Shown piece after piece: positions 10,057-14,270 of a stretch of DNA of 64,000 bases. The notes under the pieces are model-generated. The model did no database searches. It was given only the letters and a program-made list of their open reading frames with translations, and was not told the DNA's origin. The stretch is taken from positions 1 through 64,000 of the forward strand of contig NZ_JADEXG010000022.1 of the NCBI RefSeq assembly GCF_015207255.1, given 5' to 3'. The stretch's first letter is position 1; the number at the start of each line of letters is the position of its first letter. The DNA is from Vasconcelosia minhoensis LEGE 07310. GTDB taxonomy: Bacteria > Cyanobacteriota > Cyanobacteriia > Phormidesmidales > Phormidesmidaceae. Made by a program: the position numbers and the translations under genes.

Positions 10057-10755
10057 TTAGGCCCAAAAGCGGGCTTCCATGCGATCGCAGTAGTTCTCCA
10101 AATTCTCAAACTGGCGGGCAAAGTCCGAGAGCACAGAGGGCAGCGTCAGCCGGAACAGGTTGGCCAGAAATCCGTAGCCGGTAGCGTCCAGGCTAGTGGG
10201 CTGCTCGCCCATCAAAAAGGGCTTGTCGGCGAGGAAATCGCTAATTGCCTTAATGTCGTTCTGGCCCATCTCATAGATTTCCGCTCGGCTATGGCGACCC
10301 ATTCCATGACCGTAGAGATTGCGCAGGACATCCCGACGGACCATTGCAGGCACAATCTTGCGCAGAATAGGCGGCAGCTCTGAGAAATAAACCTGGCGAA
10401 TCACTGCCCAGTTGTCGGCTTCGGCCCAGCGGCTGTATAGAGTCGCCCAGTAAAGGTGCTCTTCCATCAGTCGGCAAAAGGCAAGCGAGACGGATTGCTC
10501 CTGCGGACTCAGGTGCTGATCGAGCCGATCGCCGTAGGTTCGCTTGAGGTAGTCAAGGATAAAGCCAGAGTCGGCAACGGTGCGATCGCCATCATGAATA
10601 TAGGGCAGCTTTTTCTTAGGCGCTTTGCGAACGTCAGCCTCTTCTGCAACCTCATAAGGGAGCTCGGCCATGCGCAAATAGGTTTCCAGCTTGAGGCAGA
10701 AAGGACTTGGATTACGAACGCCTAAGGCAGGTTCAAACTGATAGAGGGTAATCAT
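10057..10755 (-). CDS. glutathione S-transferase-like protein (metaxin/Fax type)
   Basis: From ATG 10755 the product is 232 residues. The N-terminal thioredoxin-like domain begins MITLYQFEPALGVRNPSPFC and includes KKKLPYIHDGDRTVADSGFI, which fits the metaxin/failed-axon-connections branch of the GST superfamily. The C-terminal half is an all-helical GST domain (GEQPTSLDATGYGFLANLFR). Glutathione use is not assured in this branch. A longer frame opens at 10815, but ATG 10755 overlaps the stop of the upstream acetyltransferase in an ATGA arrangement, indicating translational coupling, and the protein homology begins there. Confidence 0.88.
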   Translation of the reverse strand: MITLYQFEPALGVRNPSPFCLKLETYLRMAELPYEVAEEADVRKAPKKKLPYIHDGDRTVADSGFILDYLKRTYGDRLDQHLSPQEQSVSLAFCRLMEEHLYWATLYSRWAEADNWAVIRQVYFSELPPILRKIVPAMVRRDVLRNLYGHGMGRHSRAEIYEMGQNDIKAISDFLADKPFLMGEQPTSLDATGYGFLANLFRLTLPSVLSDFARQFENLENYCDRMEARFWA

Positions 10756-11156
10756 CGGTCGTCGCCAGCATATATCCACATTGGCTCTGTTTGGCCAGCT
10801 CGGGCGAATCCGCATTTTTCGTAGAATGCGATCGCGTCACCCTCCGCTACCAGCATCTGCATATGCAACCCCTCATAGCGCTGTTTCAAAATCTCCATAA
10901 TCCGTTTACCAATCCCCTGTCCCTGAAAGTCTGGATGCACCAGCAGATGCGGATAGTAAACCACCAAAAATCCATCAGAGATGGCATTGCCAATCCCAAT
11001 CAGCCGTTCGCCCTCCCAAGCCGAAACCAGCGCATGGGAGTTGAGCAGCGCCTGATGTAGTGCCTCAGGCTTTCGAGCCGAAGACCAGCCGTTGGCCTGA
11101 TATAGGGGCAGGATTTGCGCGATCGCGATCTTCCGCTCCTCAGAAAAAATAATCAT
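10752..11156 (-). CDS. GNAT-family N-acetyltransferase
   Basis: The product from ATG 11156 (MIIFSEERKIAIAQ) is 134 residues, the usual size for a compact GNAT enzyme. The acetyl-CoA-binding motif A is HPDFQGQGIGKRIM, followed by a typical final strand (AIAFYEKCGF). The frame is open to 11294, but the extra 46 residues are not GNAT-like, so I prefer the internal start. The substrate is not predictable. Its stop overlaps the GST start by four bases, so the two are likely co-transcribed. Confidence 0.88.
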   Translation of the reverse strand: MIIFSEERKIAIAQILPLYQANGWSSARKPEALHQALLNSHALVSAWEGERLIGIGNAISDGFLVVYYPHLLVHPDFQGQGIGKRIMEILKQRYEGLHMQMLVAEGDAIAFYEKCGFARAGQTEPMWIYAGDDR

Positions 11157-11187
11157 CTTTTGCGATTCGGACCACTGACACAAAAAC

Positions 11188-11502
11188 CTAGATTGAACGC
11201 AAATAGGGATCACCTGATGGAGGATGTAGCCCAGTCTGAATCCAAAACCGTCTTGTTTCTCGAATGGAATCGTTTTCTGGATAACGGGTATCATTCAAAT
11301 CAAGACGAGCGCAGGTTGCCCGACCCGTCGAGGTGACACCTTCAATGACAACACCCTGATTCCAAACAAAATGCTCTCCCCAAATCTGCCGGCGAGGATT
11401 AAAAAGGGGAACAATTTCTTGAGATTCTGGATCAACACCCGAAACGAAATTGTAACGTCTTTCATTACAGCGACCTGTCTGCTTGACTTCATCACCGATT
11501 AG
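11188..11502 (-). pseudogene. HNH endonuclease remnant lacking its catalytic core
   Basis: The frame encodes SGVDPESQEIVPLFNPRRQI, GVTSTGRATCARLDLNDTRY and GLHPP, which align along their whole length with the C-terminal half of the intact HNH protein at 56027-56494 (TGVDP, ATVPLFNPRHDQW, LTSTGRATIAALDLNRDR, GRHPP). The part that should carry the CxxC, DH and N residues is missing: only the last CN (RCNERR against HCNRRK) remains, right after a short start. Roughly 60 residues were lost. It overlaps the small gene upstream by 11 bases, keeping the two-gene order of the intact module. Confidence 0.7.
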
Positions 11503-11758
11503 CATTTTGAGAAACCAGCATCGCATTGACATGGGTAAAGATCCGGTCTAATTCCCCAATTGCCTCTAGCTCAGCTATTTCGTCCGGCGTCAGCTGATCG
11601 GCTTTTTTCTTTTCCAGAAGATTTTCCATCTGAAGCTGAAGGGCTTCGCTGAACTTAAACAAGCTGAAATTGAATGATTGTTCAAGTCTGATTTCGTGAA
11701 TCAGCGCAGATGGTCGGCTAAGAGCTACAGTCATTGATACCTCATTGCTATCGGGCAA
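11492..11758 (-). CDS. small conserved protein of the HNH module (paralog of 55746-56024)
   Basis: The 88-residue product resembles the protein encoded at 55746: both share a pattern around FKFSEALQLQMENLLEKKK, then LTPDEIAELEAIGELD and a V-N near the end, against FRASSTVQTRIEELLFKQK and LAEAQELDCYEEID. In both places it directly precedes an HNH endonuclease gene or its remnant. Small, charged, helical proteins in that position could be regulators or antitoxin-like partners, but I do not recognise a named family. Because its partner here has lost the HNH core, this copy may be non-functional. The start may be the internal ATG at 11734. Confidence 0.6.
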   Translation of the reverse strand: MPDSNEVSMTVALSRPSALIHEIRLEQSFNFSLFKFSEALQLQMENLLEKKKADQLTPDEIAELEAIGELDRIFTHVNAMLVSQNANR

Positions 11759-11993
11759 TATTTAATCTCTATCAGTAAAAGAATTATAGCTTCATACAGC
11801 AGTACAAAATATTGTGTTAGCAGGTTAGCCTTTTTGAAGTTCGTAGGCTTACTAGTTAGTAAATCCATATTGACTACATCCAGACTGGCCAGCAGCGCTT
11901 CTTGTGTAATATCTGCAGTTGCCAGTTCTCACCATCGCCTCACTATGCATTGACTACCTAGCTCAATCATCAAGTGGCAACTCGTCTAGTCAG

Positions 11994-12269
11994 TCAGCGC
12001 TCGAAAGATTGATGGCTCTCACCGCTTTTCCTTCCGGCTATCAGCCCCTCAACCCCAATATGCTCATCCAAATCAGTCCATTCAATGGCGTAACCTTCCC
12101 CAAGGAGTTGCCAGTTCTGTAGTTCTTCTTGAGAAGCATGTAGCAAACGGGGATACCAGGATAAAGGAATAGTTAAGCTGCGTCCGTCCGTCAGGTCTAC
12201 AATTAGCTTTGCGTCGGTCACGCTGACCTGTATTTCAAGGGGTTCTGTCTCAAGTATTAAAGTAGTCAC
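11994..12269 (-). CDS. DUF2442-domain protein
   Basis: The 91-residue product contains the DUF2442 pattern: VTDAKLIVDLTDGRSLTIPL, WYPRLLHAS, and an ending with EWTDLDEHIGVEGLIAG. Such proteins often occur beside DUF4160 in apparent toxin-antitoxin or stress pairs; no DUF4160 gene is adjacent here. The C-terminus stops at FER, where relatives usually continue RWL; the next codon is TGA in place of a possible TGG, so the last few residues may be lost. Its function is unknown. Confidence 0.75.
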   Translation of the reverse strand: MTTLILETEPLEIQVSVTDAKLIVDLTDGRSLTIPLSWYPRLLHASQEELQNWQLLGEGYAIEWTDLDEHIGVEGLIAGRKSGESHQSFER

Positions 12270-12407: not shown

Positions 12408-12833
12408 TTATATCTCAGCCCAGTTTTCTATTTTCAGTCCTGCTATCTGACTAAAATCAGATAGGTTACGAGTAAGTAGCGTAGCGTTATTGACAACAGC
12501 GATCGCGGCAATTTTCAGATCCATATTTCCCAAGCGTGGATAGGCTTTCCTTAATCGTTGGTGTTCCAAACCAGCAGCAAGGTTAAACGGAACAATCATA
12601 ATCGAACGATAATCATTCGAAAGCTTTTGTAGACCCCGATAAGCTGAAATCTGCTCGTCCAAGTTTCTTGCTCTCGACAGTACGCTGAGCCGACCTCTAA
12701 CTTGTTCTTCATAGGTAATCACAGTAACCGCGACTTCTACTGCTGCAACGATTGCCAATCTTGCCAGAATGCGCTTGCCCTCTCGTCCATTACGCTGAAT
12801 GAGACTGAGATGATCAGTGTCAAGAACATACAT
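12408..12833 (-). CDS. vapC: VapC-type PIN-domain ribonuclease toxin
   Basis: The 141-residue product has the PIN-domain acidic residues in order: MYVLDTDHLS (first Asp), TYEEQVRGR (Glu), GNMDLKIAAIA (Asp) and LLTRNLSDFSQIAGL (last Asp region). VapC proteins are Mg-dependent RNases, often cutting tRNA, held inactive by an upstream antitoxin. The gene begins 17 bases after the end of the membrane-DUF433 fusion gene, whose C-terminal 30 residues look like the antitoxin that normally precedes such toxins. All catalytic residues appear intact. Confidence 0.9.
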   Translation of the reverse strand: MYVLDTDHLSLIQRNGREGKRILARLAIVAAVEVAVTVITYEEQVRGRLSVLSRARNLDEQISAYRGLQKLSNDYRSIMIVPFNLAAGLEHQRLRKAYPRLGNMDLKIAAIAVVNNATLLTRNLSDFSQIAGLKIENWAEI

Positions 12834-12850
12834 TATGAAGTGCTAGGACG

Positions 12851-13903
12851 CTACTCAGCAGACCTACGCCACTCCTCACCAAGACGGACTGCTTCATCGA
12901 AAGTCGAATCATTTTCAAAGCTGCCTGCCACCTTTATCCACCAGGGAGTTTCCTCTGTAGGATAATCCAGCTTACGAGAGGCATATGTCAGGGATGCCTT
13001 TAAATCATCCATCTCCAAATCTGGCAGTTCTTCCAAGACTTGCTCAGCGCTCAGACCTGCTGCGAATAGATCTAAAACGTCTACCACCCGAACCCTCATA
13101 CTGCGAATGCAGGGACGACCTCCACACTGCTTTGGACTTATTGTAATGCGATTAAGCAATGCTAATCTACTTACATCTTTCCCAAAATTATCTTCATTCT
13201 TAGCGGACTCTGTCAAATAATTATGACTATTTTCATTTATCCCATCGCCTGACGAATATTTAAGGAGCTCATCTTGATTTCTTAAAATCTCTTCATTAAC
13301 TTTTTTGATAATTTTGAACGAAGGTTTTATTGATCCATAATAGAATCCTGCTCCTAAAAAATACAACGAAAATAGAAGCATAATGAGCCGAATAGATAGC
13401 TTACCTGTTTGTAAAAAGACATAGAGGCCAAGCGATAATATACCTGCTAGAACAATAAGTACATAAATCAGGTCAGCTGAAAATAGCGCTATTTTATCTG
13501 ATCTTGTAAATCTACCTAATGTTGTAAACCTGCGTACTTCTACAATTCCAGTACTTCCAACTTCTAAAAAAGGAAGGGTTTTTCGCAGATCAGGGTACGT
13601 AAGTCTACCATTTGCAAATTTATGTAGGTCAATCACCTTTTCTTGTAAGCATTTATCAGCTTTTATACCAGTTGCATGGCTAATAGATATGCAGTTTATT
13701 TGTTCCTGCACGATTTTTTTTGCCTTACCTGTTGCACCATTTTCTTTAAGCAAATATTTCAGTACCAAAAGCTTGCGCTTTGAAATAATATCCCAAAACC
13801 CATAAACTTCTTTCAAGCTAAATACTAAAGCAAGAAAGAGGATGCCAATGATGATTCGAGCATCTCTGGTATCTTCTATGAGTTTTACTACGCTTTCAAG
13901 CAT
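12851..13903 (-). CDS. fusion of a three-helix membrane domain, DUF433 and a VapB-like tail
   Basis: One 350-residue frame joins three units. Residues 1-210 are a membrane module with hydrophobic segments at about 15-37, 139-164 and 170-192 and a basic cytosolic loop. Residues 210-248 are a polar linker. Residues 250-314 are a DUF433 domain (NRITISPKQCGGRPCIRSMR, then VLDLFAAGLSAEQVLEELP). Residues 320-350 (WWIKVAGSFENDSTFDEAVR) match short antitoxins usually found before PIN toxins. VapC follows after 17 bases. The 5' two thirds are clearly A+T-richer than the C-terminal part and the neighbours, suggesting a recent join or transfer. A TTG near residue 249 could start a separate DUF433-antitoxin protein. 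The membrane domain is not one I recognise. Confidence 0.75.
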   Translation of the reverse strand: MLESVVKLIEDTRDARIIIGILFLALVFSLKEVYGFWDIISKRKLLVLKYLLKENGATGKAKKIVQEQINCISISHATGIKADKCLQEKVIDLHKFANGRLTYPDLRKTLPFLEVGSTGIVEVRRFTTLGRFTRSDKIALFSADLIYVLIVLAGILSLGLYVFLQTGKLSIRLIMLLFSLYFLGAGFYYGSIKPSFKIIKKVNEEILRNQDELLKYSSGDGINENSHNYLTESAKNEDNFGKDVSRLALLNRITISPKQCGGRPCIRSMRVRVVDVLDLFAAGLSAEQVLEELPDLEMDDLKASLTYASRKLDYPTEETPWWIKVAGSFENDSTFDEAVRLGEEWRRSAE

Positions 13904-13971: not shown

Positions 13972-14270
13972 TTAGAATCCAGTTGGCTGCATCAGCGTTT
14001 GATGATGAAAGGACAACCTCCATTGTCCCTTGCGAAGGGGAGCGCGTCATCAGAAAGCGAAAGTTCTTGGAGTCCTGCAATATCAAATGACTCCCAAGGT
14101 TGTGAATTAATCGATTCAAGTATCTGGTTCTTGCCAACCAGCATCATGCCGCCTGGAAACGCCATTATGGCATCGTCGATCAGCAGAGACTCATAAAACT
14201 CGGTTGCGGCTTCTTTACTGGTGGATAGAGCTTTCCAGCCCTGCTTCTCAAGTTCGACTATATCGTGCAT
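13972..14270 (-). pseudogene. NTF2/SnoaL-like protein with internal deletion
   Basis: The frame from 14270 begins MHDIVELEKQGWKALSTSKE and continues AIMAFPGGMMLVGKNQILES, the start of a cyanobacterial NTF2-like (SnoaL-type) family. It stays homologous to SLSDDA, then gives nonsense. A different frame just after reads GQWRLSFHHQT and stops at 13972-13974; this is the usual C-terminus of the same family. So roughly 25 central residues are deleted and the frame is shifted. The remaining 92-residue frame lacks the strands that close the cone fold and is unlikely to work. Confidence 0.6.

Follow-up and report, generated by a model that had tools for sequence, protein, structure and literature searches.

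The locus lies on the minus strand of the window (the whole 64,000-nucleotide stretch that was analysed) and consists of a 350-codon open reading frame with no internal stops (13903-12851) and, after a spacing of 17 bases, vapC (12408..12833), which encodes a VapC toxin of 141 aa with a PIN RNase domain, assigned from PF01850, NF047863 and its acidic residues. Four parts were distinguished in the long frame, all on the same strand: a three-helix membrane domain (residues 1 to ~204, 13292..13903), recognised from hydropathy, charge, an AlphaFold model and homologs in genomes G191, G564, G607, G481, G702, G679 and G671; an A+T-rich hydrophilic linker that is coding in the same frame (residues 205-248, 13160..13291), judged from codon-position GC and the stops of the other frames; a DUF433 (COG2442) antitoxin domain (residues 253-308, 12980..13147; PF04255); and a VapB toxin-binding tail, ETPWWIKVAGSFENDSTFDEAVRLGEEWRRSAE (residues ~317-350, 12854..12955), identified by homology to VapB tails. 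The linker contains a promoter-like TTGACA-18-GATAAT (13187..13216, minus strand; 11/12 consensus positions), and directly after the linker stands TTG codon 249 (13157..13159, minus strand), a candidate internal start according to the in-frame start list and the alignment with free DUF433 proteins.

The sequence-only reading of this DNA had described one 350-residue frame with three membrane helices and a basic loop, DUF433 and a VapB-like tail, with vapC 17 bases further on, and all of this was confirmed. Its remark that the membrane part is A+T-richer than the DUF433 part also held: the fusion frame has a GC content of 31-36% as far as codon ~250 and of 49% beyond it, and GC3 rises from 0.18-0.36 to 0.42-0.44 across the same point. 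It had overlooked that DUF433 is a known antitoxin domain and that the linker holds a strong promoter-like site. GC at the three codon positions is 0.43/0.30/0.25 in linker codons 205-248, against 0.45/0.32/0.26 in the membrane part, and the two alternative frames of the linker are packed with stops; the retained coding pattern and the closure of the other frames show that the fusion frame did not arise merely because non-coding DNA happened to lack a stop. The possibility that two frames had been joined by a sequencing error was considered and ruled out by the linker codon pattern, the closed other frames and independent fusions elsewhere.

Immediately upstream of the fusion is a truncated DUF4440 gene (13992-14270, minus strand; the match covers only the first half of the profile and is below its cut-off), and this remnant may mark the arrival point of the A+T-rich piece. 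Downstream of vapC, the stretch 10752-12269 (minus strand) comprises a DUF2442 gene (11994-12269), a short antitoxin-like ORF (11492-11758) and a GNAT acetyltransferase gene (10752-11294), and may be a toxin-antitoxin cluster. The window as a whole contains 60 HIP1 octamers, and its homologs and relatives are from cyanobacteria, to which the source organism also appears to belong.

The DUF433 domain scored 70.7 bits against PF04255 (cut-off 23.6) and 74.4 bits in the genome search, and was 70-81% identical to free DUF433 proteins of ~74 aa, most of whose genes are followed by a DUF5615-like toxin gene with an overlapping start. The junction between DUF433 and VapB falls between '...RKLDYPTE' and 'ETPWW'. 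The window tail, aligned from residue 316, showed 73% identity to the tail of a 70-aa VapB in G005, the matching part being the second half of that protein (coiled-coil half plus tail), and the G005 VapB precedes a VapC 77% identical to the window VapC; plasmid VapBs of Pseudanabaena and Gloeothece were 73% and 77% identical to the window tail, respectively. As DUF433 is itself a known antitoxin domain, the antitoxin half is, judged from its sequence, already a chimera of DUF433 and VapB. A second DUF433 joined to a WW-type tail was found neither among 94 relatives nor among 72,556 plasmids. At L152:620-988 (G080:C24) a DUF433 runs into a different antitoxin-like tail (EIDADFGSPSGYDEDKVVDMTDWVKYG), so that DUF433 swaps do occur and are not unique to the window. 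Two further arrangements were observed: the window's own genome (L150:436-1143, G000:C102) carries a fusion of a MerR-like winged helix and DUF433 beside a toxin-like gene (cf. Rv2018/Rv2019), and at L048:561-1370 (G009:C86) a 269-aa protein combines a different N-terminus of ~220 aa, with a single hydrophobic stretch and free of Pfam matches, with the same WW-type VapB tail, with vapC next to it.

The window VapC matched PF01850 at 29.1 bits (cut-off 23.6) and NF047863 at 45.1 bits (E 1.1e-11, under the cut-off of 140), and its match to DUF5615 was sub-threshold only. The acidic residues D5, E42/E43, D105 and D126 are present in the alignment and the predicted active site is intact; the PIN proteins of G564 and G702 keep the corresponding acidic residues. 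Among 26 antitoxin candidates located beside relatives of this VapC, several transmembrane helices were clear in the window protein only; of the others, L047 had its start set too far upstream and L048 had one hydrophobic stretch, in a different large N-terminus.

Hydropathy analysis of the membrane domain placed hydrophobic segments near residues 17-35, 145-163 and 169-192, and an AlphaFold model of the domain (mean pLDDT 74.6, pTM 0.58) has helices at 15-53, 134-163 and 169-192. The first and second helices are separated by a basic loop of 105 residues (40-144) with 20 K/R against 10 D/E, and the charge pattern suggests that this loop and the C-terminus are cytoplasmic and the N-terminus outside; a C-terminus inside would place the tail in the cytoplasm together with VapC. 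Sequence searches of the membrane part in Pfam, NCBIfam, PADLOC, PHROGs and PDB gave nothing significant, a fold search of the model against PDB and viral structures gave no match below E 0.4, and neither the fusion protein nor VapC matched the PADLOC-DB 2.0 defence models to E 1. Identity as a SLATT effector was considered and rejected, with SLATT_5 at 10.3 bits against a cut-off of 29.5 and no SLATT match in the homologs.

No close relatives of the membrane domain turned up in 97 related genomes or, by two pattern scans, in GTDB contigs, and none in phage, plasmid or IMG/VR viral-contig collections; a phylum-wide search gave a single match, G191 (E 1.5e-26). Profiles built on the G191 match then recovered G564, G607 and two G481 copies, and later G702, G679 and G671, with roughly 700 different cyanobacterial genomes covered in all. 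These copies fall at six sites: the window; G564 and G481 copy 1, adjoining the same RND-pump gene; G702 and G191, adjoining nifJ; G679 and G671, among hydrogenase maturation genes; G481 copy 2; and G607. At 3/6 sites the domain is fused to an antitoxin tail before a PIN gene, each time with a different tail and toxin. When the same fusion beside vapC was sought in other genomes, as the sequence-only reading had proposed, the exact membrane-DUF433-VapB triple was found in one genome only, the window's own, and the domain was found fused to other tails in G564 and G702.

The G564 fusion (288 aa) has a membrane domain 29% identical to that of the window over 210 aa (BLASTP E 1e-18) and a tail, RPIGLAKGEFIVPDNFNDPLPDEILDLFEPK, that matches the NCBIfam VapB model NF050009 at 24.5 bits (E 3e-5, under the curated cut-off) and resembles the C-terminus of a Phd/YefM antitoxin preceding VapC on a Leptolyngbya plasmid; its frame overlaps the PIN gene (50.6 bits) by ATGA. 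Its ortholog, G481 copy 1, has kept the tail and has decayed, with stops in the membrane part and in the PIN gene. The G702 fusion (276 aa; membrane domain 33% identity, E 4e-27) ends '...RFESHFGEIESTDPTNINNETIDADLAQEYSSNNQED' and overlaps its PIN gene (29.5 bits). Tails of this type are present in 23/215 genomes of the order, elsewhere typically as the C-terminal half of RHH-like VapBs of ~95 aa before PIN genes beginning 'MLLDTSGLLC'. No DNA-binding family match was found in the G564 and G702 fusions. G191 is a decayed, toxin-less ortholog of the G702 fusion; it was considered as a free-standing form, and rejected as such on its site beside nifJ, as in G702, and its early TAG, a relic being the better description. 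Convergent beside this decayed gene (L089:3560-5744, G191:C20) is an apparent restriction-modification set, identified by eye as a methyltransferase, a small HTH regulator and a nuclease-like ORF, and this is the nearest hint of a defence setting.

Copies without a toxin are those of G679/G671, G481 copy 2 and the G607 relic, and the membrane domain is for this reason not to be regarded as bound to toxin-antitoxin pairs. The free copy in G679 and G671 (L117/L118) has a very basic C-terminus and is flanked by small hydrogenase maturation genes on one side and by hypD on the other; in G671 it is frameshifted. No genome carried the same parts as separate neighbouring genes, the arrangement that the sequence-only reading had set against a genuine fusion, though the domain stands alone in G679 and in G481 copy 2. 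With 11-25 PIN genes per genome, the chance of a PIN neighbour at 3/6 independent sites is about 2.5e-6, a figure that leaves the in-frame fusion uncounted. On at least three occasions the membrane family has become attached to a neutralising tail from a different antitoxin, always immediately ahead of the matching PIN gene and, by homology, with each predicted tail paired to its own toxin; across the three fusions the same membrane domain stands in place of coiled-coil, Phd and RHH-like N-termini.

These comparisons support the reading of the locus as, probably, a VapBC-like type II operon, the antitoxin of which has a three-helix membrane anchor replacing the usual N-terminal half. The most serious rival, which we regard as rather unlikely, is incidental read-through: a probably horizontally acquired A+T-rich membrane gene would have lost its stop and run into an ordinary DUF433-VapB gene, a product of ~102 aa starting at TTG249 and expressed from the linker promoter would do the work and the membrane part would be irrelevant to the toxin. 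Such an event would fit the sharp GC step at codon ~248, the occurrence of the membrane domain alone elsewhere, and the position of TTG249, which aligns with the start of free DUF433 proteins and lies 28 bases downstream of TTGACA-18-GATAAT (13216-13187), the best promoter-like site of the region. Among simulated 130-nt stretches of equal composition, about 0.2% contained a comparable site; the 11/12 site, a match in sequence only, could be a promoter of their own for antitoxin and toxin. Read-through does not, however, account for two more independent in-frame fusions to unrelated antitoxin tails before PIN genes, nor for the coding pattern that the linker retains. In G564, moreover, no in-frame ATG, GTG or TTG occurs beyond the one at codon 185, which lies within the third helix, so that a free tail is impossible from a common start.

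The membrane-tethered antitoxin proposed by the sequence-only reading is partly supported. It gains from the presence of the same domain on two other unrelated tails before PIN toxins, in G564 with no start for a free tail; in the window, on the other hand, TTG249 and the promoter-like site of the linker allow a short form, and the window copy may make both tethered and free antitoxin. In G702 an ATG at codon 203, just past the third helix, could give a free antitoxin. The window is the least certain of the three fusions with regard to tethering.

It is improbable that the membrane domain is itself the effector, for example a pore-former or depolariser, with the tail and PIN protein regulating it and VapC acting as a partner or a second arm instead of the only toxin. 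In RosmerTA and some PanT systems the toxin is a small multi-helix membrane domain (PMC10440598), and free copies of the domain occur without PIN genes; the domain has, however, no significant SLATT, PADLOC, PDB or viral-fold match, the PIN active sites are intact and the tails are of the standard VapC-binding type. Least probable of all is recombination debris, a functionless passing chimera of three gene fragments on its way to becoming a pseudogene: the DUF433 and VapB pieces derive from two toxin-antitoxin types, the DUF4440 gene immediately upstream is truncated and several homologous loci have decayed, but against this stand 350 stop-free codons in A+T-rich DNA, an intact VapC active site and the equally intact fusions of G564 and G702.

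If the locus is a VapBC-like operon with an anchored antitoxin, the C-terminal tail would bind VapC on the cytoplasmic side and block its RNase site, and the VapC-antitoxin complex would be located at the membrane, with the membrane domain as an exchangeable platform. The anchor would act as a sensor: membrane disturbance, or degradation of the anchored antitoxin, would free or activate VapC, and active VapC would cleave RNA and bring about growth arrest. The DUF433 of the window may retain DNA binding. A precedent for a tail on a foreign carrier is the neutralisation of a toxin by its Phd C-terminal tail in fusion with SUMO, and PanA is a case of a proposed sensor domain (Panacea) with exchangeable neutralising elements (PMC10440598). 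The wider proposal, that a constant membrane sensor takes any VapB tail, holds VapC at the membrane and releases it on membrane damage such as phage attack, forming a modular cyanobacterial family, is put forward tentatively, as a plausible extension in which we place less confidence than in the operon itself. Were it true, a platform with at least three unrelated tails would show how toxin-antitoxin pairs can be made to respond to an input new to them, namely membrane state, and would offer a compact model for studying how chromosomal VapBC systems are triggered, a question of long standing.

The general view is that type II antitoxins are soluble. A large survey of 2009 stated that a membrane component had so far been detected in none of the type II systems and excluded membrane-linked pairs on that ground (PMC2701414), and the open-access literature searched yielded no type II antitoxin anchored in the membrane. 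Among described systems, the SLATT 2TM effectors are alike in being small membrane-helix domains of conflict systems, with one weak sub-threshold match, but differ in that the score is far under the cut-off, the match is absent in the homologs and the context is another. PanA is alike by analogy, in that its accessory or sensor domain stays constant while the tails are exchanged to suit unrelated toxins; in the window, by contrast, the constant domain is membrane-embedded and the toxins are PIN proteins only, and the Pfam scan gave no match to Panacea (DUF4065) in the window proteins.

In other systems DUF433 is an antitoxin fold that binds DNA (PMC2701414, PMC3834315), DUF433-winged-helix fusions are known (PMC2701414), and a DUF433 antitoxin has been characterised in VapBC10 of Synechocystis (PMC3834315). 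With this PIN-COG2442/DUF433 class the window shares a DUF433 that is 70-81% identical to the free antitoxins of the class. It lacks the free ~75-aa DUF433 protein and DUF5615-like toxin by which the class is recognised: its DUF433 is internal to a 350-aa ORF, its toxin is a tRNA(fMet)-type VapC rather than a DUF5615-like partner, and its toxin-binding tail comes from another VapB type. The closest likeness is to type II VapBC, with which the window shares a PIN toxin directly downstream, the antitoxin gene first, short spacing or overlap and a C-terminal tail homologous to ordinary VapBs; a PIN protein with the conserved acidic residues and an upstream antitoxin with a predicted toxin-binding tail, two features expected of a VapBC pair, are both present. 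The difference is that a three-helix membrane domain makes up the N-terminal half of the window antitoxin. Toxin and tails are ordinary VapBC components, and the predicted membrane anchoring appears to be the new element, an architecture with good comparative support, and the whole suggests a membrane-held toxin-antitoxin pair of a little-known kind in cyanobacteria.
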